A stretch of 64,000 nucleotides of DNA, taken from positions 62,001 to 126,000 of the forward strand of contig LIHN01000021.1 in the NCBI GenBank assembly GCA_001314545.1, given 5' to 3'. The notes below the pieces were generated by a model, which saw only the letters and a list, made by a program, of their open reading frames with translations, was not told the origin of the DNA and searched no databases. Below are positions 9,996 through 64,000 of this stretch, piece by piece; the stretch's first letter is position 1, and each line of letters opens with the position of its first letter. The position numbers and the translations under genes are program-made. This DNA comes from Bacteroidetes bacterium HLUCCA01. GTDB taxonomy: Bacteria; Bacteroidota; Rhodothermia; Balneolales; HLUCCA01.

Positions 9996-10038
9996 AATGT
10001 ATTTCTCTTCAAGTCCGTATTTACAAAGTTGCGATTGA

Positions 10039-29300: not shown

Positions 29301-29447
29301 GGGGACGCTCCCCCGGTCGCAGGTTATCTCACCGCGATTGACTACCTGCTCACCCAAACCGGGGACGCTCCCCGGCCGCAGGTTATCTCGCCGCGATTGA
29401 CTACCTGCTCACCCAAACCGGGGACGCTCCCCGGCCGCAGGTTATCT
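29301..29447. repeat. 59/60-bp tandem direct repeat between convergent genes (about 2.5 units)
   Basis: Units containing GGGGACGCTCCCC start at 29301, 29361 and 29420. Each includes a GCAGGTTATCT block; in the third unit this block holds the stop codon of the RND gene (29442-29444). Each unit has a small GGGG/CCCC hairpin. The array fills the space between the T9SS protein gene and the convergent RND gene. Confidence 0.9.
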
Positions 29448-32609: not shown

Positions 32610-32701
32610 GGATGGTACAAAACCCGGATGTAATGAGATCAATCGTTGCAGCGTTGAACCTGCGCATGCAACAGATCCTGCGTAGGTGCAGGCTGTTGCA
32701 T

Positions 32702-33781: not shown

Positions 33782-33891
33782 CCGTCGACTCATCACCCGA
33801 GTGCTTCGTACCCTTGCACCATAGTAATGGTCATTTTCGCCAAGGTTCAAACATCCTGCAGACGACGTTGGCGCGATAAATATTGGAAGTA

Positions 33892-36800: not shown

Positions 36801-37143
36801 GCAGCATCATGCGAACCTGATCCAGTTTTTCGCGGGTGTTGAGGAAAGCGAGGTTCATATCGCGTCCCCAGTCGAAATTCAGGGCAATAATGCTTTGTCC
36901 TTGCCGGGCGAAACTGTGCACACTGCTGATGCCGGGAATGGTGCTCATAACCGCTTCGAGGGGTTCGTTGATGCGTGTTTCGACCTCACGGGCTGAAGCG
37001 CCCGACCACTCGGTTTGCACCAATAGCGATGGGCGGTCGACATCCGGCAGGAGATCCACAGACAAGCTTTGCAGGGCAATCCATCCGAAGATAAATGTTG
37101 CCAGCACGAGCATCAGCGCTGTAACGGGACGGTCAAGTAGCAT
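33892..37143 (-). CDS. RND-family efflux permease (first permease of the operon)
   Basis: A 1083-residue permease starting MLLDRPVTALMLVLATFIFGW. TM4 has GLTLGIGLLVDNAIVVLENINRY, again Asp-Asn for the AcrB Asp-Asp pair. Between the two halves lies an unusually long polar linker of about 70 residues (from KRSARQKSVAPP to about ARGLNR), rich in Asp, Glu, Lys and Ser. The C-terminal helices (ALATALIGGMFTSTLLTLFVIPVLFRIV) are typical. Its stop overlaps a possible adaptor start. It may pair with the second permease as a hetero-oligomer, as MdtB and MdtC do. Confidence 0.92.
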   Translation of the reverse strand: MLLDRPVTALMLVLATFIFGWIALQSLSVDLLPDVDRPSLLVQTEWSGASAREVETRINEPLEAVMSTIPGISSVHSFARQGQSIIALNFDWGRDMNLAFLNTREKLDQVRMMLPEQAGRPRLIYTTPADEPVAVLSITASGQPDPDFATRLNLKRWSEHVLTRRLEQQEGIAQAVLVGAVVPEVHIRFRQADIDQYGLSIAQIREVIRQANVFSASGELRDGWYRYSLSIQSRIQSIDDIRMLAVTRLTDTQRILRLHEIADVYLDEQDPTSFSLYNGSQVLTVLVKKDYGSNTVRVFESLGPLIEEITGQYPGIQVEILQENASYVKNTIQNLLQTLAYGGILAFIVLFVFLNDPRMPFTIGIAIPASIFLTFFVMYLFGIQLNIISLSGLTLGIGLLVDNAIVVLENINRYRKYGHDIRESAHRGTREIALAVTASTFTTISVFLPLLFLGGFEGAIFRDQAFTLSVSLLASLLLALGIIPVMVVSFQKRSARQKSVAPPVKQDESFAEDPVSMHDRALAEGSDPNSDAAASRSHKEDAGFTVDGKANPDEKRNVFARGLNRVQRLYEGLLQLALGRPALVLVSTLIPGILAGWMFWQLPKAMLPEGEPDRVQYRVSLPGNTSLLTLQQAARDLSLDLAAVLESAPPTRGILVMGGYTDQTNLSRIAREGLNKFTIQIAVPPGYRATDIDQLMSERIASQSGWTLERLEGDSALGTLTGGNTDPVILQFVGTDRVFSERVAEAMMEWLPARIPGSTLHKQYPEVVDTWHIRFNSARLLQLGLTENQVIDFLESRARGNLVTEWNREDESIAIRLFSDRESFVDPQSLVMSAGGRNIPLRELLAIEQVQEPEQLERAGQAAVLSYRTGFTLADWWFNGREIRDAVREFTRETGIEVRIAGSALMVDRLLRDMLRLLGISLILIYIILAVQYESLRYPALILVAVPFAWIGSLFLLYILGGSLNMLSFMGLLILTGIAVNDAILKVDFMRRYLEESGDLSQAIIQAGKHRFRPVLMTTMTTILGLLPMLIPFGDGYEFRQALATALIGGMFTSTLLTLFVIPVLFRIVNRNHPFSAQPSEHL

Positions 37144-39990: not shown

Positions 39991-42900
39991 ATGGGACTGC
40001 TTGCGACCTCTCTTGTGCTCATTTCCGGTATCGCAATGGCTCAGACCAAAGCGGATACCCCTGTGCCAGGCGTAATCAACATCAAGTTTAAGCAGGAAAC
40101 ACTGCAGGTAAACAGGCAAGATATCTATCCTGAGGAAATAGAGATATTCGAATTAAGAGCGTTACTGTCCGGGCACGGGTTCGCCCGGGGAGAAAAAATA
40201 TTCCGGCATTTCGAAGCAAGAGATACCCTGACAACTTCAAGAATAAACGGAGAGCCTGTCATCCTGCTTGATCTGTCTCGCTGGTATACCATCTGGGTTG
40301 CCGATACGGTTAACACCCTCCGTTTTGCCGAACAATTGATGGAATTGCCAGGTGTGGAAGCGGCCTCACCGGAATTCCTGATGTATCCGCAGCAAGTTTT
40401 TCCTAATGACCCCCGTTTTCAATCAAATAATCAGTGGGGGCTGTATAACTGGGCCAATCCCGGAAAAGATATTCATGCTCCACAGGCTTGGGAGATGAAT
40501 ACCGGAAGAAGTGATGTGATTATTGCCGTAATTGATGGCGGGGTCGATTACACCCACTCGGATCTGGATCCGGGCAACCGCAGCCGGATCATCCAGGGGT
40601 ATGATGTAGCCGATAACGATTCCAACCCAATGGACGACATCCCTTCACAGTATGGATTCGCCAATCATGGGACAGCTGTAGCCGGTATTATTGGTGCGAT
40701 TACAGACAATAACCAGCAAGTAGCCGGAGTCATGTGGGATGCAAAAATTATGCCTGTGAAGGTCGCTCACACCAGTTCGCCTTGGTGGGATCCGTTTGGC
40801 TGGTCCATGGGAGGTGCCCCTCACAGCAAAGTAGCTGCAGGGGTGGATTGGGCAAGACAAAATGGAGCCAATATCATTAACCTGAGCTTAGGCGGACAAG
40901 GTGTTTCGGGAAACTGGTACAGCACATTTATCAATAATCCTGTCACCCAGGCAACCTATAATGCATATCTTAGTGGTATTTTAGTAGTAGCAGCTATGGG
41001 CAATGACGGAAATCAAACCGTGAATTACCCGGCCGGGTTTCCCTGGACAATAGCTGTTGGAGCCTCCAGTCAATCAGACTTTAAAGCTTCTTTCTCTAAT
41101 TCAGGAAGCCACATTGATGTTGTAGCCCCGGGAGTCAGTTATTATTCCACCTATAGAAACAATCAGGATGGTTCGTTCAGTGGCACTTCGGCAGCGGCTC
41201 CTGTCGTTTCGGGGGTAGCAGGCCTGATCCTCTCGCAAAGCAGAGATTTGGGCTTGAACCTGACCCATGATGACATTCGAAATACTATTCGAGTGACAGC
41301 GGATAAAGTCAGTGGAATGGGTGCTCATAATTTTACTAATGACTACGGCTATGGACGCGTCAATGCTTACGAAGCTTTAAAATTGATCAGCCCACCTAAT
41401 ATCGTAGAACACGGCACTGCGTATGGAGGCAGTTCGACATTGTTTTGGAACAACCATACCCATACATTTTACCGGGGGATGGGGACTCTGGCAACAGGTG
41501 TCTACTACGGTGTCAGAACGTATAAAATTACCGGCTTTACGAGTTTTTCCAATTATTTTGATGAACCACCTGTAGTTTGGATCCGGGATCAAACTACAAA
41601 AGGTTGGAGTGGCGCAAATCCAAATATGCAAGTGCCATGGGTAAATATCACCAGTGTAACTAAGTCTGGGTTTTATTATGAAACATTTGTTTACTGGATT
41701 GGAACCAATTCTGCGGGACAATCAATCAATACCTATTATCCGGCTTCTCCGTCAAATGCAAGAATTGATTACACCGCTGTTGGTAAGCTTTCTGGTGATG
41801 TTTGGAGTGGTAATATGAATATTACTTCCACTTACACTGTAGAGGCAACTGATCTATTAACTATCACCCCTGGATCCTCCATAACGTTTACTAACAATTC
41901 AGACTTCATTGTAAATGGAGAGTTGATAGCTAATGGAGTTACTTTTGATTTTGTTACTCCATCCAATAACGGTATTAAATTCAATTCTGGTTCTTCCGGT
42001 ACTATTTCTTACTCTACCATTAAGAATGCGACGACCGGCATTTGGGCGACCGGTTCCAGCACCTCAATTAATATACATGACAATGTGATTTCCGACAACG
42101 GGACCGGCGTTCATCTGACATCCACTGGTACGAATGTCCTGATTACAGATAACGTAATTGAAGATAATACGATTGGAATGTGGTTGTACCAGTCCAATGC
42201 TTCCGTTTCTGGAAATATCATTGAGAATAATACCTATGGGATGAACGCCGACTATGTGTCTACTACGGCAGAACACGACGGGAACAAAGTCCGCTACAAT
42301 ACGGCGCGCGGTCTGTTTCTAAATTCCTCTAACCTGTGGGTTACCACCAGTGTGTTTGCGGGAAACGGCGGCAATCAGGTGCTGATCAATGACGGCTGGC
42401 CAAGCTTTGCCGAATCCCCGGGATTCGAAGGGTATAACGTAATCGCCTATGGTGCTGGTCCGATGCTCAAGGCACAAAACGGGGCATACGTATTTATGGG
42501 TTATTCCGCCGATGGCGGATACAATAGTTTCTACGAAACCGACATGCCCCATATCCGGGCGGAAAACAACTCCGGCGTGTGGGCAGACAGAAACTACTGG
42601 GAAGGTGGACCGGGCAACTCCATGGACGGTACATCCTGGGTGACCTCGAATAATACACTTAGCACCGACCCGAATCCACCTTACTACCAGAAAATGATTG
42701 CTGGCAATAGTACTTCCAATAGGTACGATGACACCGATAATCATACTCGCGTCCCTGAAGAACTTTTGACGGCAATGCGTGTGAGCATGGGCGGTGAGAT
42801 AGAACAGGGTTTATCAGTTTTAAAAAGCTACATTGAAAATGATCGTCAATCTTCGTTTGCTCCATTAGCTTTGATTGGTTACAACGCCCTCGTACACAGA

Positions 42901-43581
42901 CAAATGCAGGGCTTGGCTTCTGAGGGGCCGCGTCAAACATTGCAAGCCGAATTGACGGCGTATCTACATTCTCAGTCCACAACCGGCCAATCGGATCCCC
43001 TCTGGCCCTATGCGGTGCGTTTGCTGGCAAATAACGCCATGCTTGAATCAGATTATGAAATTGGCCGGAATCACTTGCTTTCGTTGGCCGAATTTTCATC
43101 GTACGATTCTGTTCATAATCTACTGGCACAGTATAATCTGTTTACCTACTACCTCGAAGTGGAGCAAAATTTCGAGAAGGCAACCTCATATTTAAGTCAA
43201 TTGTTAAGAAATCACCCCGATGATGAATTGACCCAAACAGCGCAAGTACTTGCTGGTATTTACCTTAATAGTGTGCCCGATCCTATTGCTGAGCAGCATG
43301 GCAAAGAGAAACAAATTTCCGACATTGTCCAGGTTGGAGCTTATCCCAATCCATTCAACCCGAATGCGGTAATCCGGTACAGCATCCCGGAAGATGGTCA
43401 GGTAAGGCTTGCCGTATTTGATGTTTTGGGGCGACAAGTGTCAGAGCTTGTCAATGGTTCGGTTCGAGCGGGTGTCCATGAAGTGGCCTTTAACGGCGCA
43501 AATCTGGCATCGGGAATTTACGTGTATAGGCTACAGGTCAGTGGTCAGATTATCACTGGCAAAATGATGCTACTGAAATAA
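39991..43581 (+). CDS. Subtilisin-family (S8) protease with beta-helix region and T9SS sorting domain
   Basis: A 1196-residue secreted protease. After a signal helix (GLLATSLVLISGIAMAQ) and a propeptide-like region come the catalytic triad: Asp182 (AVIDGGVDY), His226 (NHGTAVAG) and Ser400 (SGTSAAAP). Residues about 620-800 hold right-handed beta-helix-type repeats (NVIEDNTIGMWLYQSNASV, GNIIENNTYGM). The C-terminus is a T9SS type A domain (AYPNPFNPNAVIRY...FDVLGRQV...GIYVYRLQV). Translation may begin at 39932 through the AT tract, or at 39991 by reinitiation 14 bases after the leader stop. It fills most of a 4.5-kb integron cassette, very large for one. Substrate unknown. Confidence 0.9.
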   Translation: MGLLATSLVLISGIAMAQTKADTPVPGVINIKFKQETLQVNRQDIYPEEIEIFELRALLSGHGFARGEKIFRHFEARDTLTTSRINGEPVILLDLSRWYTIWVADTVNTLRFAEQLMELPGVEAASPEFLMYPQQVFPNDPRFQSNNQWGLYNWANPGKDIHAPQAWEMNTGRSDVIIAVIDGGVDYTHSDLDPGNRSRIIQGYDVADNDSNPMDDIPSQYGFANHGTAVAGIIGAITDNNQQVAGVMWDAKIMPVKVAHTSSPWWDPFGWSMGGAPHSKVAAGVDWARQNGANIINLSLGGQGVSGNWYSTFINNPVTQATYNAYLSGILVVAAMGNDGNQTVNYPAGFPWTIAVGASSQSDFKASFSNSGSHIDVVAPGVSYYSTYRNNQDGSFSGTSAAAPVVSGVAGLILSQSRDLGLNLTHDDIRNTIRVTADKVSGMGAHNFTNDYGYGRVNAYEALKLISPPNIVEHGTAYGGSSTLFWNNHTHTFYRGMGTLATGVYYGVRTYKITGFTSFSNYFDEPPVVWIRDQTTKGWSGANPNMQVPWVNITSVTKSGFYYETFVYWIGTNSAGQSINTYYPASPSNARIDYTAVGKLSGDVWSGNMNITSTYTVEATDLLTITPGSSITFTNNSDFIVNGELIANGVTFDFVTPSNNGIKFNSGSSGTISYSTIKNATTGIWATGSSTSINIHDNVISDNGTGVHLTSTGTNVLITDNVIEDNTIGMWLYQSNASVSGNIIENNTYGMNADYVSTTAEHDGNKVRYNTARGLFLNSSNLWVTTSVFAGNGGNQVLINDGWPSFAESPGFEGYNVIAYGAGPMLKAQNGAYVFMGYSADGGYNSFYETDMPHIRAENNSGVWADRNYWEGGPGNSMDGTSWVTSNNTLSTDPNPPYYQKMIAGNSTSNRYDDTDNHTRVPEELLTAMRVSMGGEIEQGLSVLKSYIENDRQSSFAPLALIGYNALVHRQMQGLASEGPRQTLQAELTAYLHSQSTTGQSDPLWPYAVRLLANNAMLESDYEIGRNHLLSLAEFSSYDSVHNLLAQYNLFTYYLEVEQNFEKATSYLSQLLRNHPDDELTQTAQVLAGIYLNSVPDPIAEQHGKEKQISDIVQVGAYPNPFNPNAVIRYSIPEDGQVRLAVFDVLGRQVSELVNGSVRAGVHEVAFNGANLASGIYVYRLQVSGQIITGKMMLLK

Positions 43582-50632: not shown

Positions 50633-51592
50633 CTATACAGAGGTGTTCGACCGAATCTTAGCGTAGAGTTTCTGCACGGCCATTTTCGGGGTTCTGTCAA
50701 TGTGAAATACTCCCCAGTGCTTTTCAGGCTCGAGAGGCTCGGGTGAGCCTTTCCAGTCTTCATCGAAGGCCTCAAAGAAGAACGACATGATACCCTCGGA
50801 GCGGGTCCAGGCCTCCAGCTTTTCAAAGTAAATGTTCTGATAGGTTTCGTTCACATTCTCCGGATCAATACCCCGACCATTGGAATTGGTGGCCCAGCCG
50901 GCTTCGGTAATAACTACCGGGGTATCCGGATATTTGTTGGACACGGCATAGTAATTCTCTTTGGTGTAGTCCAGTCCCTCGTCAATGTGCTTGTACTCCC
51001 AGACGGGATAGGTATGGATGGAGATGAAATCCACCTCCGCGGCCAGCTTTTCCAGCTTGTACAGCCAGGGGACGTAGTTTTCGCAGAACGTGACGGGCTG
51101 TTTTGCCCCCGCTTTCACACGGCGAACATACTCCAGCACGCTGTTTTCATGCACATAATGGTCGGTCCACTCCACACAGGCCTCATTCCCCACCGACAGC
51201 GACATTACAATGTCGGGATATTCATTCGCCCAGGCTATGAGCCTGTCGATTTTCCCGGAATTGAGGTCCACATTGGCCTGCAGCTGTTCTTCAGAGTACA
51301 CACCGCCGCCCCAGGGACAGTTAAAATTATTCATCTCAGCCTCGATGTAGGCCCCGAGCATGACCTTGAAGGGGAGTTTCTCCTGCCGAATTACCTCAAG
51401 TACCGTTTTGGCGTGCTCATCCACATCGTACATGCGCAGGTACAACCAGTGCGGTTTGAGCAGCAGCAGATCTTCCAGAACCTGCTCGTAGGATGGATGT
51501 TCGCCACCGGGGTACTGTCCTTCCCGATAGCCGGAATAGCAGATGGCCCTTCCGGGCTGGAGCTGGAACTTTTGGTAGATGGTATTGGTCAC
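50633..51592 (-). CDS. GH17-family beta-1,3-glucan hydrolase (no signal peptide)
   Basis: A 319-residue single-domain (beta/alpha)8 enzyme. The acid/base is Glu137 (LSVGNEACVEW) and the nucleophile Glu230 (VVITEAGWAT), both in GH17 positions. There is no signal peptide, so it should act in the cytoplasm. It is the last gene of the beta-glucan locus, 207 bp after another GH17 gene. Bacterial GH17 enzymes cut or transglycosylate beta-1,3-glucan. Confidence 0.85.
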   Translation of the reverse strand: MTNTIYQKFQLQPGRAICYSGYREGQYPGGEHPSYEQVLEDLLLLKPHWLYLRMYDVDEHAKTVLEVIRQEKLPFKVMLGAYIEAEMNNFNCPWGGGVYSEEQLQANVDLNSGKIDRLIAWANEYPDIVMSLSVGNEACVEWTDHYVHENSVLEYVRRVKAGAKQPVTFCENYVPWLYKLEKLAAEVDFISIHTYPVWEYKHIDEGLDYTKENYYAVSNKYPDTPVVITEAGWATNSNGRGIDPENVNETYQNIYFEKLEAWTRSEGIMSFFFEAFDEDWKGSPEPLEPEKHWGVFHIDRTPKMAVQKLYAKIRSNTSV

Positions 51593-51799: not shown

Positions 51800-52705
51800 T
51801 TAGAATTTCAGGTTCCCCTTGCTGTCCCAGATTCCCCAATACGCACCTACTTCACCCTCGGCACCCTTCTTCCAGTCTTCATCAAACGATGCGAAGTAGA
51901 ATACCGGTATGTCTGCCTTGGCCGACCATAACTGGGTATTGATGAAGTAATTCAATGCATTGGCGTGCGTAGGAACCGCTCCGCCGAGGGCTTCACCCTG
52001 GCTGGGCCATCCGGTTTCGGTAATCATAACGGGTTTCCCTTTTCCGGCCTGGGCAGCAAGATCAAACATGTGCCGCATATGGTCGTATCCGTACTCGATG
52101 GGTGTTCCCTCCCAGTATGGGTAGCAATTCGTAAGGATGATATCGCAGGCGTCCGCAATAGCGGGTCGGGTCACAAATTCGTAGTAAGCGTCAACATAAC
52201 CCACCGGAATATCCGGCAGTGCTTCCCTGACCTCTGCAATGTAGGTCAGCAGCTCTTCTTCGCTGAGATCTTTACGGTAAAGTACCTCGTTCCCAACGGC
52301 TGCAACATCCACCAAACCATCGTTAGCCAGGGCAATCAGGGCATCAATTTCTTCCCGGTTCTTCTCCGCATCGCTGCTCAACCAGGCCCCTACCAGGGTT
52401 TTCATCCCCATTTCCTTTGCCACACGCGGAATATGTTCGTTACCCTCGATGCAGGAAAATGATCGCACCCATTGGGTGTGGGGTTTCAGGATGGCCAGTC
52501 GACGGCGGATTTGCTCCTCGGTAATCACATCGCTGGGTTTTTGCCCTTCCTCGTAGAGACTAAAACAGAATCCAAAGACTCCATCAGCCATAATTTCACG
52601 GAAGAGATCCCGGATTTCAACGTCCGATTTGCTTTTCAGGAAGCTGTTGCCGGAAAGCGATTCAATCGCCTTGTAGTTAAGATAATTTTCTTGACGGAAT
52701 GACAT
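51800..52705 (-). CDS. GH17-family beta-1,3-glucan hydrolase, second copy (no signal peptide)
   Basis: A 301-residue enzyme with Glu140 (VAAVGNEVLYR) as acid/base and Glu230 (VMITETGWPSQGE) as nucleophile. The TGWPS block is close to plant and yeast GH17. No signal peptide is present. It starts 25 bp after the symporter stop, so it is probably translated from the same transcript. It and the neighbouring GH17 are clearly different subtypes. Confidence 0.85.
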   Translation of the reverse strand: MSFRQENYLNYKAIESLSGNSFLKSKSDVEIRDLFREIMADGVFGFCFSLYEEGQKPSDVITEEQIRRRLAILKPHTQWVRSFSCIEGNEHIPRVAKEMGMKTLVGAWLSSDAEKNREEIDALIALANDGLVDVAAVGNEVLYRKDLSEEELLTYIAEVREALPDIPVGYVDAYYEFVTRPAIADACDIILTNCYPYWEGTPIEYGYDHMRHMFDLAAQAGKGKPVMITETGWPSQGEALGGAVPTHANALNYFINTQLWSAKADIPVFYFASFDEDWKKGAEGEVGAYWGIWDSKGNLKF

Positions 52706-52730: not shown

Positions 52731-54161
52731 TTAAAGTTCTCCGCGGCGACTTACCAGTTCCGCTTTGATTCTGCGTGCTTTTTCTTCAGTAAGGTCATAT
52801 CCCCACATGACCCAGATGGCCAGTGCGGCTGTAAGTGACGGAATGATTATATCGGCCAACCGGAGACTGGTCATGGTCTCTACAGACTGCATGGCCAGGT
52901 TCTGGTCGAAGCCGACCAGTTTCAAGACCAGACCACCCAAAACCAGAGCAATTCCCTGCCCTAACTTAACCATCCACCAGTAAATAGCCCCGAACATGCC
53001 TTCCTTGCGGGGCATACCATTACGAAGTTCATCGAGATCACACACATCGGCTGTCATACTCATCATCAGGGTGAAAAGACCACCGAGACCAAATACCATA
53101 AACGGTACCGGCATGAAAATTAGCCAGGGATTTTCCGGACTGAATCCCCACCATTTGAGCAGATAACCGATTATGGAAAGTATAGTGGAAACGATAAAGG
53201 CATTGCGCTTGCCCCACTTATTAGACATCCAGGTAACTACGGGAATAATCAGAAACGCTGTAGCAACAGCACTGATGGTTGAGAACCAGGCCGGCCAGTT
53301 ACCCGCGGCACCATAATCGCCCTGAAACATGTGAAAAACGATGATGAAATAGCTGAATGAAGCTACCATCTGAAATCCGTTGAACACCAAAAAGGTAGCA
53401 CCACAAAGTCGGGCAAACGGCTTGTTTCGTGCGATGAGGGCCATACTCTTGGCCAGTTTCACCAAATTTATAAACGCCGATTTAAAGCTGAGATCAGCAC
53501 GATTACTCAGGTTCTTCTGGTCTACTTCCTTACAGAAAATAGCCGGCATAATACCGAGGATGATACAGGCTCCACCAACTACTACGGCCAGTTGATGCAC
53601 GCCTTGTGCCTGGGTTTCAAACAGATCAGGATTAGCAATCAGCACCCAGAACCAGGGTACAATCATCCAGGCAATCTGTCCGATGGTCTGGGAAAAACCC
53701 ATCAGACGGGTCCGTTCGTTGTAGTCCGAGGTCATTTCGTACCCAAGACCGATCAGCGGGGTGGAGAATGTGGTGTTTCCGATCAGGTAGATGAGGGAGA
53801 ATATCAGAAAGTACCAGAAATTGTACGATTGGGAATTGTCCGGATCCAATTGCCACAGAGCGATAAATAACAGTCCACTGGCGATGGCACCGATGAAAAT
53901 ATACGGTCGGCGTCTGCCAAAACGCGACTTCGTATTATCCGTGATGTAGCCCATGATGGGATCGGTTACGGCATCAAACAGACGAGGCAGACCGCCCAGC
54001 AAACCGGCCAGAAACGGGTCCATTCCAAATGCGGTAAGCAGAAAGAAAGAAAATACGCCCAGGGCGCCGGGAAGCAGATTATTGACGAGATGACCGGAGC
54101 CAAAAGCCGCTTTTTGCAAAAACGGTACTCTGTCTTTGGCTGGAGTTACATATTCAGACAT
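52731..54161 (-). CDS. GPH-family sugar/cation symporter (MFS)
   Basis: A 476-residue, 12-helix inner-membrane transporter from the ATG at 54161; an upstream GTG at 54194 is less likely. RLFDAVTDPIMGYITDNTKSRFGRRRPYI is the defining cation-binding block of the glycoside-pentoside-hexuronide (GPH) family. Position among beta-glucanases suggests it carries gluco-oligosaccharides with H+ or Na+ into the cytoplasm, where the GH17 enzymes and phosphorylase act. Confidence 0.9.
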   Translation of the reverse strand: MSEYVTPAKDRVPFLQKAAFGSGHLVNNLLPGALGVFSFFLLTAFGMDPFLAGLLGGLPRLFDAVTDPIMGYITDNTKSRFGRRRPYIFIGAIASGLLFIALWQLDPDNSQSYNFWYFLIFSLIYLIGNTTFSTPLIGLGYEMTSDYNERTRLMGFSQTIGQIAWMIVPWFWVLIANPDLFETQAQGVHQLAVVVGGACIILGIMPAIFCKEVDQKNLSNRADLSFKSAFINLVKLAKSMALIARNKPFARLCGATFLVFNGFQMVASFSYFIIVFHMFQGDYGAAGNWPAWFSTISAVATAFLIIPVVTWMSNKWGKRNAFIVSTILSIIGYLLKWWGFSPENPWLIFMPVPFMVFGLGGLFTLMMSMTADVCDLDELRNGMPRKEGMFGAIYWWMVKLGQGIALVLGGLVLKLVGFDQNLAMQSVETMTSLRLADIIIPSLTAALAIWVMWGYDLTEEKARRIKAELVSRRGEL

Positions 54162-54261
54162 GTGGTGGTGATTTAAGGTGTTTGTGGAGGGCACAGTCGC
54201 AGAAGCCCTGTGGATTCATTCGGCTACAATTCAGATTTCAGGTTGGGATTTCAGCTACAGA

Positions 54262-55548
54262 TTATTCTCTCTCGGCCAGACGACGACGAATTTCAGCGTC
54301 GGTTGGCGGCACCAGTACATCCTGAAGCAGGGAGTCCAGGTCGCCATTATACGTTTTGGTTACAGGCATGCCGTCGCGGGTAAGACCATCAAATACCCCC
54401 GCATCCACATACTCCCAGATAGGATATTTGGCCTGAGCCTGCAGGTTGATCAGCCCGAAATGGTTTTCAGATCCCATTGGATTAGCGGCATCTTTCCAGG
54501 GCTCATCAAAGGCCTCGAAATAGAAGACCGTGATATTATTTTCGTTCGACCACTCCCGGATGTGTTTGTAATACAGACCCGATTTGTACTCATCAATAGC
54601 CTGAGCTCCGCCCTCGCCGTATTTTTCATTGGATATGGTGGCCCAGCCGGTTTCTCCGATATGTACGGGTTTGTCTACACCCAGGCTCTCCATATAGTCT
54701 ACCACGCTTTGGAACTGATTGATGGCGTAGTCGCGCGAACGGATCATGGCAGAGTGTACTTTTTCCAGATCACTGAGTCCGGCTTCGCTCTCCGGAACAC
54801 CCCAGAAAAGCGGATTGTAATGGGTGTCATGCATGGGATAGGTATGCATGGAGATAAAATCGACCTCGCGGATGAGGTCGTTCAGATCCTCGTTGTGGTA
54901 TTCCTCGCCGCCGCCGCCCCAGGATGCGAAGTTATCGGAGGTGGTAATCCAGAGGCTTTCGGGGAGCTCACCCTGAACCTTAAGATCCTGCAAGTGACGT
55001 ACCCATCGTAAAATAATGGAAGGCTCCACATAGTATTCGGCCGCCCAGTGGACCATCGCTTCGTTACCCACAGCAATAATCTTGACGATGTCAGGGTATT
55101 CCTGGGCCAGCTCTACGGCACGGTCAATTTCCTGTTTGTTGCGGGGTGCATCTACGTCGCGGATACGCTCGGGTTCGTCGGTCCATGCATTCTGGGCGTC
55201 AATCCATGCGCCCAGCATCAGATACATTTCGAAATCGGGATCTTCTTCCTTGATTTCGCGGATGGCTTTGAGCAGGTTGGTGGCTTCGGCCAGGTATACG
55301 TTGTAGGTGCGAAGCAGGCGGATTCCCATGGCATGCAGGATACGGAGGTCATCCTTTAGCTGGGGAATGGTAGGCTGGATGTCGCGGGTATTTTCCCGGT
55401 AAGCACCAAAGGAAATGGCCTGATAGGCCGGATCCCCGAGGATTTCCTCCGCTGTTTTCCCGACGTTGGAGAAATCGTGACGGGGTGATTGCACACAAGA
55501 AAGCATAAAAAGCGCGGTAAGAGACAGTATTATGGATACATATTTCAT
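54262..55548 (-). CDS. GH17-like beta-1,3-glucanase lipoprotein
   Basis: A 428-residue lipoprotein from the ATG at 55548, lipobox ending FMLSC (Cys18). The catalytic pair is Glu163 (IAVGNEAMVHW) and Glu299 (VHIGETGWAT). The layout matches the cytoplasmic GH17 copies with inserted loops, for example an Asp/Glu-rich loop at about residues 205-225. Cell-envelope location, probably periplasmic or surface, suits the first cuts on polymer or long oligomers. It starts 13 bp after the phosphorylase stop. Confidence 0.82.
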   Translation of the reverse strand: MKYVSIILSLTALFMLSCVQSPRHDFSNVGKTAEEILGDPAYQAISFGAYRENTRDIQPTIPQLKDDLRILHAMGIRLLRTYNVYLAEATNLLKAIREIKEEDPDFEMYLMLGAWIDAQNAWTDEPERIRDVDAPRNKQEIDRAVELAQEYPDIVKIIAVGNEAMVHWAAEYYVEPSIILRWVRHLQDLKVQGELPESLWITTSDNFASWGGGGEEYHNEDLNDLIREVDFISMHTYPMHDTHYNPLFWGVPESEAGLSDLEKVHSAMIRSRDYAINQFQSVVDYMESLGVDKPVHIGETGWATISNEKYGEGGAQAIDEYKSGLYYKHIREWSNENNITVFYFEAFDEPWKDAANPMGSENHFGLINLQAQAKYPIWEYVDAGVFDGLTRDGMPVTKTYNGDLDSLLQDVLVPPTDAEIRRRLAERE

Positions 55549-55561
55549 GACGACCTTGATT

Positions 55562-58500
55562 TTAGATGAGGTGGTCCTCCCGGAGGGTGACCTGTATGTT
55601 CCTGATTTCGCCGGTACGGTTGAACACGGCATTGCTCTGCGATTCATCCAGGATTAATCCTGAATAGGTTTGCTGCCCGCTGGCAGTGGTTACGGTAATG
55701 GTATCTTCGGCACCGATGGTATAGACTACGGGAACCTGACAGCAGGTGAAACACAATGATCGCTCAGGCAGGGTCAATGTGTCGTTTTGCTGGTGCAAGT
55801 TCACATAATCGAGTTTCCCGGCTTCCCGCGTAAATTCAGCCTTGCGCAGCAGGGTGGGTCTGAAAGCCAGTTTCCCGCCGGCAATGTGAACGCCCAACTC
55901 GCCCAGACTCACCAGGATGTCTTCTTTAACCTGTCCGGTCATGCCGGGTTGTTGTGCACCACGGTGCTGCGGTGTGTGCGAGTAAGGGTCGGTTGGGAAA
56001 GCTCCGTATAGTTCGGGCGACTTATGCACGCCGATGCCCTCTCCGATTTCCTGGAAGTGTCGGAGCAGACTTTCGGTACAGTGGTAGTGCTCAGCCTGGG
56101 CTTTCAGGCAGACTTCCTGAACAGCCAGATGCAGTTTGGAAACCATGTGCCAATAGATAGAGCCCAGTCCTTCATAGGCAAAGAAGGTACCCGACCTGCC
56201 GGTGAAAGCTTTGTGATTGAACACCTGCTCAAACAGATTGAGCACATACTGCGTGTCGGTTTCAACCAGATTGGCATACCCCTTCAGCCGGAGTGCTTCC
56301 AGCGCTTCCTTCACATCGGCTGCGTTGCGGAAGTTCCCGTTAAAATGAAATGCCCCGCGTACATCCCGGGTAATCAGCTGCAGATTACCATCGGCAACAA
56401 GCTTCTTGAGCAGAGGCGATCCGGCAACGGCCGACTCCTCCATGGTATTTTTCTGCAGAAAACGGGGGAGTTCCTTGTTGGGATACAGCATATAGCTGTT
56501 CTGATCAGGGCGGTACAGGGCGCTGCTGCGCAAGGCATCCAGCAGACGCGAGCTCTGCTCCGAGGTCAGATATCCGGAGCTGAGTACCGCTACCTGACCC
56601 TCCAGCATTTCACTGAGATGCGCAATTGCGATCCCGTCCGGATTCATGGTCATGATGTTATAGCTGTGATACAGATGATCATCACGGCGGTTGGCATCTA
56701 TAGATTGCTCCAGATACTTCAGGGAAATCTCCACAAAACTCCGCAGTTCTTCGATGGTCAGCAACGTGGTATTACCGCTGAAGCTTTGTTCATACACAGC
56801 AATCCGATAATCGCTGCCGGCAGTTCCGAGGGCATCGGTTATCATCTTGCGGGATGCATCGTCAAATCCATCTTCCAGAATACTGGTGTGCGAGGTGAGC
56901 GCCGTGAGAATCTGCGTAAATAGTGTATGCACTTCTTCAGATACCGGTACTTCCTGCAGACTTGCGTCACTGAGGGTTTGTTCAAAAAATTTGAGGAACC
57001 GGCGCAGATAGTACAGTGTGACCATAGACACCCCGTTACCCACAAGGGCATTGTTGGCATCGTTCCATTCCGGTCGTTGGGTGTTCATCCAGATTCCGCC
57101 TTCCGGTATGAAATTAGATACCTTGGCCAGTACTGTAACCAGTACTTTTTCCATAAAATTTACCCGGTGGATGTGTCCGTCGCGACGACGAATCAACGCA
57201 CCGTCTGCACCCTCCAGGGCTACGCGCTCACGAATGGCGTGGTCCAGAGGCTCATCAAAGTCGATCGTGTTTTTCGGATCCCTTGCAATGTCATCATAGG
57301 GCTTGATGCGATATGGGACATTAGCATAAACGAAATACGACTTATCGAAGAGCCCTTCCAGAGCATGGGGTTCATACTGACGGTAAAACTCCAGGAATTT
57401 GAGCAGATAGATAATCTGATGATCCCCCCAGTAACCGATGTACGACCACGGATTATCCGGCTCGATGGTTTCCCAGTCGAACCCACCTTTGGTCACGCGG
57501 TAGGGGTTATATCCTTCAAACGTGGAGGTGTTCAGGAACTTGAAAATCATCCCTTCAATGAATTCCGGATAGGAATGTACGAGGGCTTCCCAGTTTTGGA
57601 ATATATCCCTCCAGTTACCTTCATAGTCCAGAATTTTGGACCCATCAACTTCGCTATTGGTGTTGATGGAGAATTTATTCCATGGCCGGCTCGGGTCACC
57701 GTGACGTCGGCTAAACTTAAGCGGCAGATATTCCTTGCAGAGCCGATACAGGTCCGGGTCATCACAACCTTCGAGGCTGGAGAACAGGGTTTGCTTGTCC
57801 AGCACATCACCAAGTTCCTGCAGGAATTCCCGGTTACGTTCGGCAACAGGCTTGCTGGCGTTAGACAGATACGCGTTTAAATCGGCCTTTTCAATGGTAT
57901 AGTTATGATCAAAGGTGCCTCCACGCATTATGTTGAAGAGCACATTGGAGTAATGACGAGCATCTTTGAGCGGGTCACCGGATTTACGGAAACCATCGGC
58001 TCCGGATATAAGTCGGGCCAGCGCCTGACTTCCCCGGTCTACGTCAGAACGAACCTCGTCCATCAGCTCCGCGGGTTGCTGGCGGATGCGTTCGTGCAGC
58101 GCCACAACCTGAGCATGATTTTGATTTACATTGGCTACAATGTCCCAGCTTTTTGCTTCGCCGTCTGTCAGGGAAACCGATGCATGCAGAAAGTAGGCCC
58201 CCTTCTCACCCTTTATATCCGTTTCCGGGGTAATGGGCTGGTGACGCCGGAAGGCGTTGAGCTGGAGGGATGAGAGCAGGTATCGGGGGTTTTCCAGTCC
58301 GTTCGACCATACCACATTGGCTTTAAGTGCTTCGCTTGGCTCGGCCTTATCTACAATGATAGCGCTCAGGGCGTAAATACCCAGACCTGATTCGGCCAGT
58401 TTTTCGCTGCGTTTATAGGCATCGGCCAGATTGCTGGATGCAGTCTGCATATCAGGCTCAACGCCATAGGGCATGAGATTCTGCAGCCCATCCAGAACGG

Positions 58501-58969
58501 TAACATTGCGGGTAGTGCCGGACTCATTGCGCAATTCAGCCGTGCGAACGAAGCCATACATAGCGCTGGACTGCCAGGTGTACCGGAAAGTCAGCCCCAG
58601 ATCATGATTGACTTCCTCAAACATTATTTTATTGCCGAGGAGGTTTTTACTCAGATTTCTGGTGATTCTGTGTTGCCCGGTGAAGCGATCGGAAAAAGGC
58701 TCCCAAATAACGGTTTCGTTTCCAAGTCGTACCTGGAAAATGGTTTTACTTCCTGTGATATCGGCCGACTCGGTGATTTTATCGTCCGTATAATAGGGAA
58801 ACAGTGCATATTCACTGTTTTTCCGACCCGCGGTCAGCCCGCCGTTACTGGAAATGAACATCCAGTGATTGGAGTCACTGACGATGCTCATAAAAAACGG
58901 ACGCATACGGTCGTGGTCTGAAATTTTAAACCACTTTTCGTTCAGGTGAAGTTCGGTTGAGATAGACAA
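55562..58969 (-). CDS. GH94/GH149-like beta-1,3-oligoglucan phosphorylase
   Basis: A 1135-residue cytoplasmic protein (no signal peptide). It opens with a beta-sandwich typical of inverting disaccharide phosphorylases (NGGLTAGRKNSEYALFPYYTDDKI), followed by an alpha/alpha-barrel. Asp455 in EGNWRDIFQNWEAL is in the place of the GH94 catalytic acid. The length and the company of GH16/GH17 enzymes fit GH149 (or GH161), which cleave beta-1,3-gluco-oligosaccharides with phosphate to glucose-1-phosphate. The subfamily call needs a profile search. Confidence 0.75.
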   Translation of the reverse strand: MSISTELHLNEKWFKISDHDRMRPFFMSIVSDSNHWMFISSNGGLTAGRKNSEYALFPYYTDDKITESADITGSKTIFQVRLGNETVIWEPFSDRFTGQHRITRNLSKNLLGNKIMFEEVNHDLGLTFRYTWQSSAMYGFVRTAELRNESGTTRNVTVLDGLQNLMPYGVEPDMQTASSNLADAYKRSEKLAESGLGIYALSAIIVDKAEPSEALKANVVWSNGLENPRYLLSSLQLNAFRRHQPITPETDIKGEKGAYFLHASVSLTDGEAKSWDIVANVNQNHAQVVALHERIRQQPAELMDEVRSDVDRGSQALARLISGADGFRKSGDPLKDARHYSNVLFNIMRGGTFDHNYTIEKADLNAYLSNASKPVAERNREFLQELGDVLDKQTLFSSLEGCDDPDLYRLCKEYLPLKFSRRHGDPSRPWNKFSINTNSEVDGSKILDYEGNWRDIFQNWEALVHSYPEFIEGMIFKFLNTSTFEGYNPYRVTKGGFDWETIEPDNPWSYIGYWGDHQIIYLLKFLEFYRQYEPHALEGLFDKSYFVYANVPYRIKPYDDIARDPKNTIDFDEPLDHAIRERVALEGADGALIRRRDGHIHRVNFMEKVLVTVLAKVSNFIPEGGIWMNTQRPEWNDANNALVGNGVSMVTLYYLRRFLKFFEQTLSDASLQEVPVSEEVHTLFTQILTALTSHTSILEDGFDDASRKMITDALGTAGSDYRIAVYEQSFSGNTTLLTIEELRSFVEISLKYLEQSIDANRRDDHLYHSYNIMTMNPDGIAIAHLSEMLEGQVAVLSSGYLTSEQSSRLLDALRSSALYRPDQNSYMLYPNKELPRFLQKNTMEESAVAGSPLLKKLVADGNLQLITRDVRGAFHFNGNFRNAADVKEALEALRLKGYANLVETDTQYVLNLFEQVFNHKAFTGRSGTFFAYEGLGSIYWHMVSKLHLAVQEVCLKAQAEHYHCTESLLRHFQEIGEGIGVHKSPELYGAFPTDPYSHTPQHRGAQQPGMTGQVKEDILVSLGELGVHIAGGKLAFRPTLLRKAEFTREAGKLDYVNLHQQNDTLTLPERSLCFTCCQVPVVYTIGAEDTITVTTASGQQTYSGLILDESQSNAVFNRTGEIRNIQVTLREDHLI

Positions 58970-59040: not shown

Positions 59041-59868
59041 TTACTCTGAATAGACCCGCACATAGTCGACCAACATGGTCTGGGGGAAAGGGGTGCCGTC
59101 ATCGGGAGGGCCTACAAAGGTACCGCCCACGGCAATATTCAGAATGATATAGAACGTGTTGTCATTAAATACCCACTCGTTACTGCCGACGTCAGCGGGA
59201 GTAATGGTATTGTAGAGCTCATCATCAACGTAGAAATCGATGTAATCTGGTCCCCACTCAACGGCAAATACGTGAAATTTGGTGTCGAATCGCGCATTGT
59301 TGAGTTGGTAGGAATCCGTTACGGCATTACCGGCTGAGTAGCCGGGTCCGTGGATACTTCCATGAATTACGGTTGGTTGCTGTCCACGGTATTCCATGAT
59401 ATCGATTTCACCAATCTGCGGCCAGATAACGGTACCGTTGGAGTCGTTACCAAGCAACCAGAACGCCGGCCAAATACCCTGACCAAAGGGGAGTTTTATA
59501 CTGGCCTCGAATCGACCAAAGGTTGTTTCGAACAGGCCTCTGGTAAGAATTTTAGCTGAAGTGAAGTTAGATCCGTTGAAAGACTCCCTGCGGGCCGTAA
59601 TATGCAGCATTCCACCTTCTACCTTAATGTTTTCAGGTCGGTCGGTGTAGTATTGCTGCTCCTGATTTCCCCAGCCCGGGAGGCCAATTTCAGCTCCGGT
59701 ACCGATATCAAATATCCACCGCTCAGGGTCAACGGGTCCGTCCGTATTAAATTCATCAGACCAGACCAGGTTTGTGAATTTTTCTTCCGGTTCATTCTGA
59801 TCGCCGCAACCCCATGTGAGGGTTGCAGCGATACAAAATGTGCACAACGAAATCAGTTTTCTTTTCAT
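59041..59868 (-). CDS. GH16-family endo-beta-1,3-glucanase (laminarinase) lipoprotein
   Basis: A 275-residue lipoprotein (lipobox TLTWGC, Cys21). The catalytic signature EIDIMEY gives Glu154, Asp156 and Glu159, and the surrounding GIWPAFWLLGND, TVIHGSIHGPGYS and FAVEWGPDYIDFYVDDELY match bacterial laminarinases (GH16_3-like). It cuts beta-1,3-glucan chains outside the inner membrane. It starts 21 bp after the upstream lipoprotein stop in the same operon. Confidence 0.93.
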   Translation of the reverse strand: MKRKLISLCTFCIAATLTWGCGDQNEPEEKFTNLVWSDEFNTDGPVDPERWIFDIGTGAEIGLPGWGNQEQQYYTDRPENIKVEGGMLHITARRESFNGSNFTSAKILTRGLFETTFGRFEASIKLPFGQGIWPAFWLLGNDSNGTVIWPQIGEIDIMEYRGQQPTVIHGSIHGPGYSAGNAVTDSYQLNNARFDTKFHVFAVEWGPDYIDFYVDDELYNTITPADVGSNEWVFNDNTFYIILNIAVGGTFVGPPDDGTPFPQTMLVDYVRVYSE

Positions 59869-59889: not shown

Positions 59890-61335
59890 TTAGTTCGCCG
59901 CATCGGCGTTGTATAGGTAGATGTTATCTACCCAGAGCGTCTGACCTCTGAAGGCTATATTATTATCGCCATCTGCGGCAAGAATAATCTGCCCGAGATT
60001 AGACCGGTCAGCCATGCCGCGGATGTCAACAACCAGCGTTACCCACTGACCGGAAACCAGTCGGGGACTACCAATATTCTGGAAGATAGTGGCTGTAGCC
60101 GATGTTTCGCCGCCACCTACATTGTTCACAATACGGGCCAGCAGGGAAGATCCAACCGGTACTTCATTTGGAACGAACACATCCATGGTAAGGTGCGTCA
60201 TATTGGTTCCGTCAATGGATGGTACATTGGTGCGGAACTCAATACCTACAAAGTTGAAGTTTTCGTAGGCCAGAATGTTGTCTCCATTGACTTCAAAGTC
60301 GTTGGATGTAGTAGTCTGGAACGGCTCGTAGAACCCGTTGTAGAAGTCAACACCCACATTATCATAGGCATTACTGAAGATGGAAATGACGTTGGCAGGA
60401 TCACGGGTTGGTGTTGGTGCAGAAACGAATTCGCCCTGCGATTCAACTGTGAGTGATCCCGTGGCAACATTGCCTGCCAGCGATGCGGTAATTTCAGCCT
60501 CTCCGGTTCCAACCACACTGACTTGTCCGGTCACATCTACCGTTGCAACATCAGGATTGGAGCTGCTGAAGGTGAAGTACGCTGAAGATGGTACAATCGT
60601 CACATCCTGGCCATCAGCCTGATTGATAGTGTACCCCAGACCGGTAACCCGTGTACTCGAGCCGATAAATGCAGTTTGCGTTACTGCTTCACCGTTGAAA
60701 ATGGATGGACGAGGTTGTGCCATGTTTTCAATAGCCTCGTATTTCAGGTCATCAATCCAGAAGGTGTACCCTTCTCCATCTTCAGGACCTTCCGAATACC
60801 AGAACAGTCCGCGGCTTTCGTCCAGTACGGATGCATCCGGAATCGGAATCACATACTTACGCCAGTTGGTGGTAAGCTGCAGATTTTTTCGGGATACTTC
60901 ATACTGGTTTCCCAGGAAGTCCTGTCCGAAACCGATATCGTTGATAGATCCACCTCGTGTTGCCTTAGCATAAAAGGTGAGCGCATTATAGGAAGTAAGG
61001 TTCCGGCCGCCAAAATCATCTCGGAAGATGGCGCCTGCAAATGCACCGTTCGGATCTCCGACATTAGGTATATCGAAGCGCATAGAGGCGCCACGATTGC
61101 CAACTTTGTTATCAGTATCCACCGAAAATGCATTGTTCAGGGAGCCTTCATACGGATAGTATTCCAGTCCGGGACTGAAACTGTTGATGAAGACCTCCGG
61201 GTTAGCGGTGAGGTCTGGTTGCGACAATCCGTCTACCGACCGCTCACATGCGGTTACGGTGACCAAAAGCACAACGCCGGCGGCCAGGACTCGTTTCATA
61301 GTGTTTGATGCTAAATTCTTCATGCTGATTGACAT
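59890..61335 (-). CDS. Ig-like (Big_2) glycan-binding surface lipoprotein
   Basis: A 481-residue lipoprotein. The ATG at 61335 has an SD-like AAGGAAC; a second ATG at 61299 is possible. The lipobox is LLVTVTAC. Residues about 40-205 resemble a carbohydrate-binding beta-sandwich (GASMRFDIPN, YNALTFYAKAT, YTFWIDDLKYE). About 215-305 form a bacterial Ig-like domain (SSNPDVATVDVTGQVSVVGTGEAEITASLAG), and a second binding-like module follows with FWIDD-like WVDNIYLYN at the end. Probable role: glucan capture at the surface, like SusE/SusF. No enzyme motif. Confidence 0.78.
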   Translation of the reverse strand: MSISMKNLASNTMKRVLAAGVVLLVTVTACERSVDGLSQPDLTANPEVFINSFSPGLEYYPYEGSLNNAFSVDTDNKVGNRGASMRFDIPNVGDPNGAFAGAIFRDDFGGRNLTSYNALTFYAKATRGGSINDIGFGQDFLGNQYEVSRKNLQLTTNWRKYVIPIPDASVLDESRGLFWYSEGPEDGEGYTFWIDDLKYEAIENMAQPRPSIFNGEAVTQTAFIGSSTRVTGLGYTINQADGQDVTIVPSSAYFTFSSSNPDVATVDVTGQVSVVGTGEAEITASLAGNVATGSLTVESQGEFVSAPTPTRDPANVISIFSNAYDNVGVDFYNGFYEPFQTTTSNDFEVNGDNILAYENFNFVGIEFRTNVPSIDGTNMTHLTMDVFVPNEVPVGSSLLARIVNNVGGGETSATATIFQNIGSPRLVSGQWVTLVVDIRGMADRSNLGQIILAADGDNNIAFRGQTLWVDNIYLYNADAAN

Positions 61336-61347: not shown

Positions 61348-64000
61348 TTATATGTTGATCTGAATGTAGGTTCTAAACTCCCACTCATTGCCATTCCCGA
61401 AGCCGGGGGCCGTAGGATCGGGTACAAGCATACCGCTCGGATCCAGCATGTATGCAGGCGCATACCGTGGTGAATATTGATCCAGGGTTCGGTACGTACC
61501 GCGTACGCCAAGACGGGTTCGCGGCATATTAAACCAATCCTGCTCACCAAGCGACATGGACACATCGGCCATTAATTGCAGGGGGAAGGTTTGGTTGAAA
61601 TCACGGTGATAGTCATAGGGTCCCCAGTCGTTCACACGAGCGAAAGAGTTCAGCATGATGTTTTTGTAAATCATCCGGAAGTCGCCGCCAAATCGTGTTA
61701 CAGTTCGCGGATCACTTCCGTTGGCCTGCGCATCTCCGCCGTAAATACGGGCTATCATACCCAGATCAGGGCTGATACGAGATACAATCCTGGCGTGAAC
61801 CTCCCACAGATCCTGTGCAGGTGGTGCACCGGGAAATGCGAATGTGGTACGACCATCAGGCAGAATACCAATGGCAGCATCCTGGGTGGTAGGCAGATGA
61901 CGGTATACCAAACCGATACTGGCCGCAAATGGCGAATCTTCGCGATAATCATTGTTCCAATCGAACATATAGGTAGCGGGTGTCGGATCAAAGGTTATCA
62001 GAAGCTCACCAGCCATCATCTCGCGATTGGCACGAACTACAAATGGGTCGTCGAGGATGTTTCTTGGTCGGGCAGCGCCACCGGCTTCTGGTGTAACAGG
62101 ACCCTCAATGGGTTGCTGCCATAAGAAGTTGGGTGCAATCTGAATATTACCTAACTGGTAGGCGAAACCACTCAAAACGTTGTACTGGTTTCCACTGCCG
62201 GTGTCCTTAAGTTGCCATCCGGTAAAGGTCATGGTTTGGTCGTACCCCCCCTGAGCTACCAGTCCCATTACCGCAGACTGTGCATACCAGTTAAAATTAC
62301 CTCGCTGCAGGGTAAGTTTAAGCTTTCCACCCCAGTTATCTTCGGGCTTTATTTCGTCTAAGTAGACGGTTTGGGAACCATCTGCATTCTCACGCATGAG
62401 TTGAAATTCACGACCGTTCAGCGGCTGACCCGCCCAGATCACACCCGCTTCCAGTCCCAAAGAACCGAAGTCTCTGCCGGCTGCAAAGGTTAAACGACGA
62501 GTTTTCGGCTGGGGAATAGCAAAGGAGCTTTCAGCCTGACCTTGCTTGGCAACGTCTTCATGGTAAATAGCGGCCATATCCCATACACCCGGCTGGAACC
62601 GGTACTTCAGCAGGAATGCCGGGTTGGCACCCCACCATAACTGCGGTCCAAATGCGAATTTCAGTCCTTGATATTTACCACGTCCGGCTGCTTCGAAACC
62701 AAATGGTGCGATACCATTATACACATCAATCTGATCGCCATAGTTAGCTTCCGGATACAATCCAAAGAAATCCCCTTCATAGCCCCAGTGGTACCGACCT
62801 GTACGGTAGAATCCGGTCAGGTCAAAGTGCTGGTGTGTCCAGCTGTAGCTGGCATTGTACACCATCACCCGGTTGATATCCTGCAGGGTTGCAATGCCTT
62901 CGGGGGTGTTTACTTCCAGCTGTCGACCCCGGTTTTCATAGAAGATCTCATCGATAGGGTTTTGAGCTACGTTACCAAGCACATTAAACTGAACTTCGGC
63001 ACGCATATTCGGAGCGGGTTCTGCTTCCACACCGATGTAAAATGACTGCATGTGATCAAAACCCTGTTCGTCCGGGAATTGTCGGGTATTTGGATCGGCT
63101 GCATCGGGGGTTGTAATCAGGTCGCCACCGGTATTAAAGGTGGTAAACTCCGATGTAAACCGGCTCAGACGGATACCGGAGAGACGCTGTACCTGCTGTG
63201 CTGCACGATCACCCCGTGCCTGGAGCACGGCGTCCATTATGTTGATATCTTCAAAATACTGTGTAACGCTCTCGAGGGTGGTTCCGGGTGCGTATACATC
63301 CAGCTGATGGGCTCGTTTGAGTACGTAGTAAGCAGCCCGGGGGAAAAGTTCGAAATGACCTGCTGCATCGGTCGGGCCTTTGGCCATGATACCAAACCAC
63401 TCTTCGTTCATGTTGTTCTGTCCGGCCACAAAGTCGATAGGGTACCCGCCGTTGGCCCAGGAAGCGCCGGTGTTATGAACATCCAGATCTTCGGTTTGTC
63501 CGAGTTTCCACCAACCGTCGCTCCACTGGAATGTAAATCCACCGATGGAGTTGTCGGCGCGACCCATACCTGCTGCGTTCTGGTAAATATCCAACCAGTT
63601 GCGATGTTTGTAGTAGGCCTGCATCAGCTGGTCTTCCTGATTGGTCCGGGCGTTGAAGGCATCAGAACCAAATTCGGTAAGCAATACCGGCTTCCCGTAC
63701 TCGGCAGCTACGCGGTCGTATAAATCGGTGAAGGTTTCACCACGGTACACGTTAGCGCCGAAAATATCAATATCGGGTGCGTAACGAACCACCAGATCCA
63801 TGAACAGCAGGTCACCGTTAGCCATGGCTATCGGCCGATCCTGGTCGATGGCTTTCATGGCCAGTGCGCCTTCGTTGAACAGCTGGTACATCGCTGTTGC
63901 ACGAATTGTTGAGTTCCGGTCTTCTATCGGGATATCTTCGGTTTCAGCGCCGCCCCAGAAAAGGCCGTAGTTGTTCTCGTTACCCAGCAGGTACAGAAGT
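61348..64000 (-). CDS. Glycosidase-domain / outer-membrane beta-barrel fusion (5' end outside window)
   Basis: The frame stays open to the window edge, so the N-terminus is missing. The first 240 visible residues look like the C-terminal part of a clan-A (GH2/GH5-like) TIM barrel: LLGNENNYG with the acid/base Glu, then VYRGETF and VLLTEFGSDAF with the nucleophile Glu, and a Trp-rich segment (FTFQWSDGWWKL). The rest, over 600 residues, is rich in alternating beta-strands (ASYSWTHQHFDLTGFYRTG, GFAYQLGNIQIAPNFLW, LNSFARVNDWGPYDY) and ends EWEFRTYIQINI, as in outer-membrane barrels. The gene lies first in the visible beta-glucan operon. Confidence 0.75.
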   Translation of the reverse strand, partial: LLYLLGNENNYGLFWGGAETEDIPIEDRNSTIRATAMYQLFNEGALAMKAIDQDRPIAMANGDLLFMDLVVRYAPDIDIFGANVYRGETFTDLYDRVAAEYGKPVLLTEFGSDAFNARTNQEDQLMQAYYKHRNWLDIYQNAAGMGRADNSIGGFTFQWSDGWWKLGQTEDLDVHNTGASWANGGYPIDFVAGQNNMNEEWFGIMAKGPTDAAGHFELFPRAAYYVLKRAHQLDVYAPGTTLESVTQYFEDINIMDAVLQARGDRAAQQVQRLSGIRLSRFTSEFTTFNTGGDLITTPDAADPNTRQFPDEQGFDHMQSFYIGVEAEPAPNMRAEVQFNVLGNVAQNPIDEIFYENRGRQLEVNTPEGIATLQDINRVMVYNASYSWTHQHFDLTGFYRTGRYHWGYEGDFFGLYPEANYGDQIDVYNGIAPFGFEAAGRGKYQGLKFAFGPQLWWGANPAFLLKYRFQPGVWDMAAIYHEDVAKQGQAESSFAIPQPKTRRLTFAAGRDFGSLGLEAGVIWAGQPLNGREFQLMRENADGSQTVYLDEIKPEDNWGGKLKLTLQRGNFNWYAQSAVMGLVAQGGYDQTMTFTGWQLKDTGSGNQYNVLSGFAYQLGNIQIAPNFLWQQPIEGPVTPEAGGAARPRNILDDPFVVRANREMMAGELLITFDPTPATYMFDWNNDYREDSPFAASIGLVYRHLPTTQDAAIGILPDGRTTFAFPGAPPAQDLWEVHARIVSRISPDLGMIARIYGGDAQANGSDPRTVTRFGGDFRMIYKNIMLNSFARVNDWGPYDYHRDFNQTFPLQLMADVSMSLGEQDWFNMPRTRLGVRGTYRTLDQYSPRYAPAYMLDPSGMLVPDPTAPGFGNGNEWEFRTYIQINI

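Follow-up and report, generated by a model that had tools for sequence, protein, structure and literature searches.

Near the end of the window, i.e., the whole analysed stretch of 64,000 nucleotides from Bacteroidetes bacterium HLUCCA01, one gene raises the question of what an outer-membrane barrel contributes to a glycosidase with which it shares a single chain. An initial annotation had read the gene as a clan GH-A catalytic pair (NENN and TEFG) followed in the same frame by more than 600 barrel-like residues, and had proposed that the fusion either couples cutting to uptake or anchors the enzyme at the cell surface.

Extent of the fusion gene and its enzyme domain

The gene is one open frame (61348..63999 on the minus strand within the window). 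In the assembly contig, its start ATG was found 491 bases past the window end, giving a full span of 61348..64491 (L002:8349-11492:-). The complete protein has 1047 aa and begins with MRRVKHYLSLLSILLCISVTASAQ, a type I signal peptide, followed by the enzyme domain; the signal peptide and residues 25-164 are encoded beyond the window. Full-length single-frame copies with 53-87% identity to the window protein are present in isolates as well as MAGs across the phylum, which rules out chance or a frame artefact.

The fusion is a conserved, phylum-wide arrangement. Relatives were found in 37 of 297 phylum genomes, a few of which hold distant enzymes only, and in named GTDB genomes about 560 candidate stretches code for relatives; the 80 best-matching of the 560 comprise 73 from Bacteroidota and 7 from Balneolota. 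A further genome draw centred on G053 added nothing new. No intact barrel without the enzyme was detected in 395 phylum genomes, the exceptions being one broken gene and one gene split between contigs.

Table 1 Features of the fusion gene and its operon, in window positions
Feature	Position	Strand	Basis
GH-A / outer-membrane barrel fusion gene, 3' part	61348..64000	-	ATG at window-equivalent position 64491, outside the window
Predicted clan GH-A TIM barrel, in-window part (residues 165-395 of 1047)	63307..64000	-	Pfam PF02836 (residues 77-306) above cut-off; Foldseek BuGH158 E 1e-12
Codon of E172, putative acid/base in LGNENN, equivalent to BuGH158 E137	63976..63978	-	Alignment to BuGH158
Codon of E273, putative nucleophile in TEFG, equivalent to BuGH158 E220	63673..63675	-	Alignment to BuGH158
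Linker helices, enzyme to barrel (residues 396-435)	63187..63306	-	Helices in predicted models
Predicted outer-membrane beta-barrel domain, ~24 strands (residues 436-1047)	61351..63186	-	Model, Foldseek, alternation, loop lengths
Partner lipoprotein (invariant lipid Cys, CBM11/CBM30-like region, Big_2), proposed surface glycan-binding	59890..61335	-	Pfam, alignments of relatives
GH16 lipoprotein, proposed surface endo-beta-1,3-glucanase	59041..59868	-	Pfam
GH149 1,3-beta-glucan phosphorylase	55562..58969	-	NCBIfam equivalog, 1709 bits
GH17 lipoprotein	54262..55647	-	PF00332 E 3.5e-5, just under cut-off; position is that of the relatives' GH17 gene
MFS_2 sugar transporter, inner membrane	52731..54194	-	Pfam
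GH17 without signal peptide	51800..52705	-	Pfam
GH17 without signal peptide, second	50633..51592	-	Pfam

The sole Pfam match above its cut-off in the fusion protein is PF02836, the GH2-type TIM domain (25.6 bits, cut-off 21), which also matches 20 of the 22 fusion-family members. Identity as a GH2 beta-galactosidase was rejected because the match is limited to the TIM part: the N-terminal sugar-binding and Ig-like sandwich domains of GH2 are absent by Pfam, and the TIM domain begins soon after the signal peptide. An NCBIfam search and a phmmer search against the PDB with the fusion protein gave no match. A profile of 22 relatives reached GH158 enzymes with a full-profile E of 2.9e-7, to which single stretches each contribute weak or sub-threshold matches. 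GH158 structures ranked first in a Foldseek search with the full-length model, the closest solved enzyme being the endo-laminarinase BuGH158 of Bacteroides uniformis (PDB 6pal). Weak similarity to GH72 beta-1,3-glucanosyltransferase was seen in 8 of 22 members.

Clan GH-A enzymes have a TIM fold with an Asn-Glu acid/base after strand 4 and a Glu nucleophile after strand 7, and the fusion protein fits this clan, with a TIM fold in the model. In the profile alignment, N171-E172 and E273 correspond to N136, E137 and E220 of BuGH158, whose alanine mutants are inactive (PMC7157763). By homology, N171-E172 and E273 are thus the predicted catalytic pair; they are invariant in 22-23 aligned relatives and lie in one frame with the barrel part, as the initial annotation had it. 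The fusion shares with BuGH158 the clan GH-A TIM fold, the aligned catalytic residues and a beta-1,3-glucan locus with GH16 (PMC7157763). Unlike the fusion, to which its sequence match is weak, BuGH158 has a lipid anchor and a C-terminal Ig-like domain, lacks a membrane barrel and adjoins SusC/SusD; the fusion protein has no such Ig-like domain, and in the models its TIM domain is followed by linker helices and the membrane barrel.

The barrel and the position of the enzyme

As the first full-length model (23 sequences, pLDDT 69.6) was too weak for the barrel, this part was refolded with 84 sequences. AlphaFold2 then returned a barrel of ~610 residues with about 24 long strands (pLDDT 80.8, pTM 0.76). 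All of the 50 PDB neighbours listed by Foldseek are outer-membrane barrel proteins (among them BtuB, FepA, MOMP, chitoporin and AlgE; E 1e-10 to 1e-7); given that TM-scores to solved barrels are low (~0.3), the fold class is clear while strand number, pore size and precise architecture are uncertain. The model has an even number of amphipathic strands, a hydrophobic lipid side and long loops on one side. Independently of the Foldseek match, hydrophobic and polar residues alternate along the strands with a mean difference of 0.66, versus 0.38 in shuffles (z 5.1, reached by 0 of 5000 shuffles), and in 21 of 26 strands conservation is higher on the polar lumen side than on the lipid side, with strand borders for both tests taken from the predicted model. 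This conservation of the modelled lumen would fit a functional pore more readily than an anchor. The region of residues ~436-1047 is strand-rich, and model, Foldseek and alternation together support the union of enzyme and outer-membrane barrel in one chain. The same three lines of evidence rejected a soluble beta-sandwich or beta-helix as C-terminal half; sandwich modules were the outcome that would have spoken against the initial annotation.

The barrel part has a mean column identity of 66%. It matches no Pfam family in any of 21 members, and no sequence relatives of it were found in the PDB. In particular, neither the plug domain PF07715 nor the TonB-dependent barrel PF00593 matched in the 21 members, whereas true SusC genes do match the plug. 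A TonB-dependent receptor fused to an enzyme was therefore rejected. Chitoporin and maltoporin-type sugar porins resemble the fusion barrel in being plug-less outer-membrane barrels for oligosaccharides, although no sequence similarity to them was found. These porins are 16-stranded trimers without an enzyme domain.

The loops connecting the 24 strands are long on the face opposite the N-terminus (mean 23.5 residues) and short on the N-terminal face (mean 5.4; p 0.0004). In known bacterial outer-membrane barrels the short-loop side is the periplasm, and soluble domains at the N-terminus of even-stranded barrels generally lie there. Since the N-terminus enters on the short-loop side, the modelled enzyme domain is most likely periplasmic, below the pore and not on the surface. 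Strand order and loop lengths place both chain ends in the periplasm, which disfavours the surface anchoring that had been suggested as the second option. Coupling of cutting to uptake is the favoured reading.

The operon and repeated loss of the barrel

Downstream (3') of the fusion, the genes for the partner lipoprotein, a GH16 lipoprotein, GH149, GH17, in many relatives GH30, and MFS follow in an order that is kept across the phylum, with a median gap of 12 bases between fusion and partner gene. Gene calls were mechanical longest-ORF calls, and some neighbourhoods are cut by contig ends. Resemblance of the partner lipoprotein to CBM11/CBM30 and Big_2 is weak; searches of the partner lipoproteins gave only Big_2/Big-like, CBM11, CBM30 and a single DUF2808 match, and none for the SusD domains PF07980/PF14322. 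GH149 is probably cytoplasmic, as no signal peptide was seen. LuxR-type Y_Y_Y or LacI regulators often lie upstream of fusion loci. Neither a further outer-membrane channel conserved across relatives nor a glycan synthase was found in the operon. From operon and fold we infer that the substrate is probably beta-1,3-glucan.

Two observations concern neighbouring genes. Directly upstream of the fusion and beyond the window, L002:11607-14357 (-) encodes a protein of 916 aa that carries CBM4_9 and ends in a T9SS sorting tail, likely a secreted glucan binder. The MFS protein is ~300 residues longer, about one GH17 domain, in some relatives (L037, 792 aa; L133, 783 aa), comparable to the MFS-GH17 protein of Formosa, while MFS and GH17 are separate neighbours in the window.

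Enzyme-only relatives occur mostly in the window organism's own order. In an enzyme tree that has distant stand-alone GH-A enzymes as its root, they fall within the fusions and at least 8 changes are needed, which indicates that the barrel was lost repeatedly. Decaying barrel sequence follows the stop codon in three genomes (G119, G418, G415), and one of these, G418, has two copies (L157, L158), a complete fusion and an enzyme-only gene that retains a barrel remnant. The partner lipoprotein adjoins 103 of 112 fusions, whereas none of the 22 enzyme-only genes has it as a neighbour (Fisher p 2e-18, without correction for descent); among the 4 independent pairs on supported branches, 3.6 point the same way and none the other, too few for significance. 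Similarly, GH16 lies no more than 3 genes downstream of the fusion in 99 of 102 cases, but at none of 17 enzyme-only loci. Barrel, partner lipoprotein and GH16 thus behave as one module that is gained or lost together, while the periplasmic and cytoplasmic beta-glucan pathway stays.

N-termini of the 22 enzyme-only proteins, read by eye, comprise 9 lipoboxes, 12 plain signal peptides and 1 ambiguous case. No T9SS tail was seen in the 12, which would suit a periplasmic enzyme. Fusions have no clear lipobox, the five pattern matches all sitting inside ordinary signal peptides. The 9 lipobox forms count against a periplasmic enzyme, since lipoproteins of Bacteroidota can be surface-located.

SusC/SusD pairs resemble fusion and partner in that an outer-membrane barrel and a glycan-binding lipoprotein are encoded side by side; the fusion differs in lacking plug, carboxypeptidase-like domain and SusD homology, and its barrel bears its own enzyme. 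In family f2 and genome G305, SusC and SusD, then GH16, precede the enzyme-only gene, an arrangement that looks like replacement of the barrel. Most enzyme-only loci outside these have no SusC/SusD nearby, and SusC/D is also present in six fusion loci. SusD was found upstream in 5 of 93 fusion loci (absent in 88) versus 4 of 16 enzyme-only loci, a difference (Fisher p 0.025) that is not significant with independent pairs. A simple rule whereby SusC/D replaces the barrel is therefore true only in part, as its nominal p of 0.02-0.03 is lost with independent pairs. In one genus (L158, L159, L160, L174), a SusC-model match of 824-840 aa without SusD recurs near the locus on the opposite strand and is probably another TonB-dependent receptor. 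The window itself holds a SusD/SusC pair (508 + 1039 aa; 8598..13158, minus strand) about 48 kb from the fusion.

Proposed role in glucan uptake

The simplest role for the barrel module is to let sugar through the outer membrane to the fused enzyme. We propose that the fusion is an outer-membrane channel for beta-1,3-gluco-oligosaccharides that carries its own glucanase under the periplasmic mouth, to which we assign a probability of roughly 0.6; transport would probably be passive and TonB-independent, as the missing plug suggests. The GH16 lipoprotein would nick laminarin-type glucan at the cell surface, and the CBM-type partner lipoprotein would keep the chains above the pore, acting like SusD without being its homologue. 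Oligosaccharides would then cross the ~24-stranded plug-less barrel, and the fused GH-A domain would cut (or transglycosylate) them as they emerge; we infer that this would trap them and so keep the gradient. The MFS would import the products, and GH149 and GH17 would finish degradation in the cytoplasm. More tentatively, and with slightly less than an even chance, barrel, glucanase and non-SusD lipoprotein may form an undescribed uptake machine that imports beta-1,3-glucan without TonB energy and replaces SusC/SusD across Bacteroidota and Balneolota, with SusC/SusD later taking the module's place in some lineages.

The main rival is that the barrel mainly anchors the glucanase at the outer membrane while uptake proceeds via SusC/D pairs or general porins from other loci. 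Some form of tether would seem useful, given that a lipobox replaces the barrel in the 9 enzyme-only forms, and the host genome has four SusD genes elsewhere, so that another importer could serve the fusion operon; six fusion loci also contain SusC/D. However, the length of the barrel, its column identity and its conserved lumen go far beyond the needs of an anchor, the partner lipoprotein and downstream GH16 are missing wherever the barrel is missing, and no other channel is conserved in the operon. We consider an anchor unlikely for these reasons. Distinctly less probable still is the same pore with its enzyme displayed on the cell surface and feeding it from outside. Surface endo-glucanases do feed SusC/D in Bacteroides beta-1,3-glucan PULs (PMC7157763); against this stand the periplasmic rule for N-terminal domains, with which the loop asymmetry agrees, the GH16 lipoprotein that the operon already supplies for the surface, and the enzyme-only relatives with plain signal peptides and no T9SS tail. 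Export or modification of a self-made beta-glucan by a synthesis system of the PgaA/BcsC/AlgE type, to which AlgE among the structural neighbours and the weak GH72 similarity could be taken to point, is very improbable, considering that the operon lacks a synthase, that GH149, GH30, the MFS importer and the LacI and Y_Y_Y-LuxR sugar-type regulators indicate catabolism, and that a comparable operon in Formosa is induced by laminarin (PMC6246565).

Few carbon flows in the sea are larger than that of laminarin, whose uptake by Bacteroidota has been described almost wholly via SusC/SusD, to the point that PULs are called by this pair. If the fusion is an importer, many beta-glucan loci go unrecognised or are recorded as incomplete, uptake without TonB-driven transport would be directly testable in laboratory Flavobacterium, and hydrolysis coupled to outer-membrane pore passage would have a natural example. 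The operon type is already known, and the barrel in the fusion protein is the new point: the 'variant 1' laminarin PULs of Formosa, Muricauda and bloom MAGs hold GH149, GH17, GH30, GH16 and MFS in conserved order, and susCD was reported missing from one NS4 MAG (PMC6246565, PMC10108472, PMC13188888). An upstream 'GH2' is listed for Muricauda (PMC13188888) and a 'GH0' for bloom MAGs (PMC10108472); by position, the 'GH2' of Formosa/Muricauda-type PULs, and perhaps this 'GH0', may be the fusion gene. We found no mention in these three papers of an outer-membrane barrel in the GH2/GH0 protein or of a role in uptake. A literature search for CAZyme/outer-membrane-barrel fusions or a SusC-independent laminarin route found none, with subscription journals thinly covered and an earlier description possible; nor did we find a published assay of any fusion-family member. 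The arrangement, which the initial annotation did not know from described polysaccharide loci, is widely conserved and so no one-off. A close parallel is the MFS-GH17 fusion of Formosa and other marine Flavobacteriia (FORMB_24740, PMC6246565), which likewise joins transporter and glucanase in one chain within the same laminarin operon type; there, an inner-membrane helical transporter carries a C-terminal GH17, whereas here an outer-membrane barrel follows an N-terminal GH-A domain.

Elsewhere, the window encodes two RND-type efflux genes with a HlyD-type adaptor between them (29442..37143, minus strand) and a large protein that resembles subtilisin and has repeats like those of a beta-helix as well as a T9SS-type C-terminus (39991..43581, plus strand), the latter and the efflux gene at 33892..37143 being judged by sequence only.
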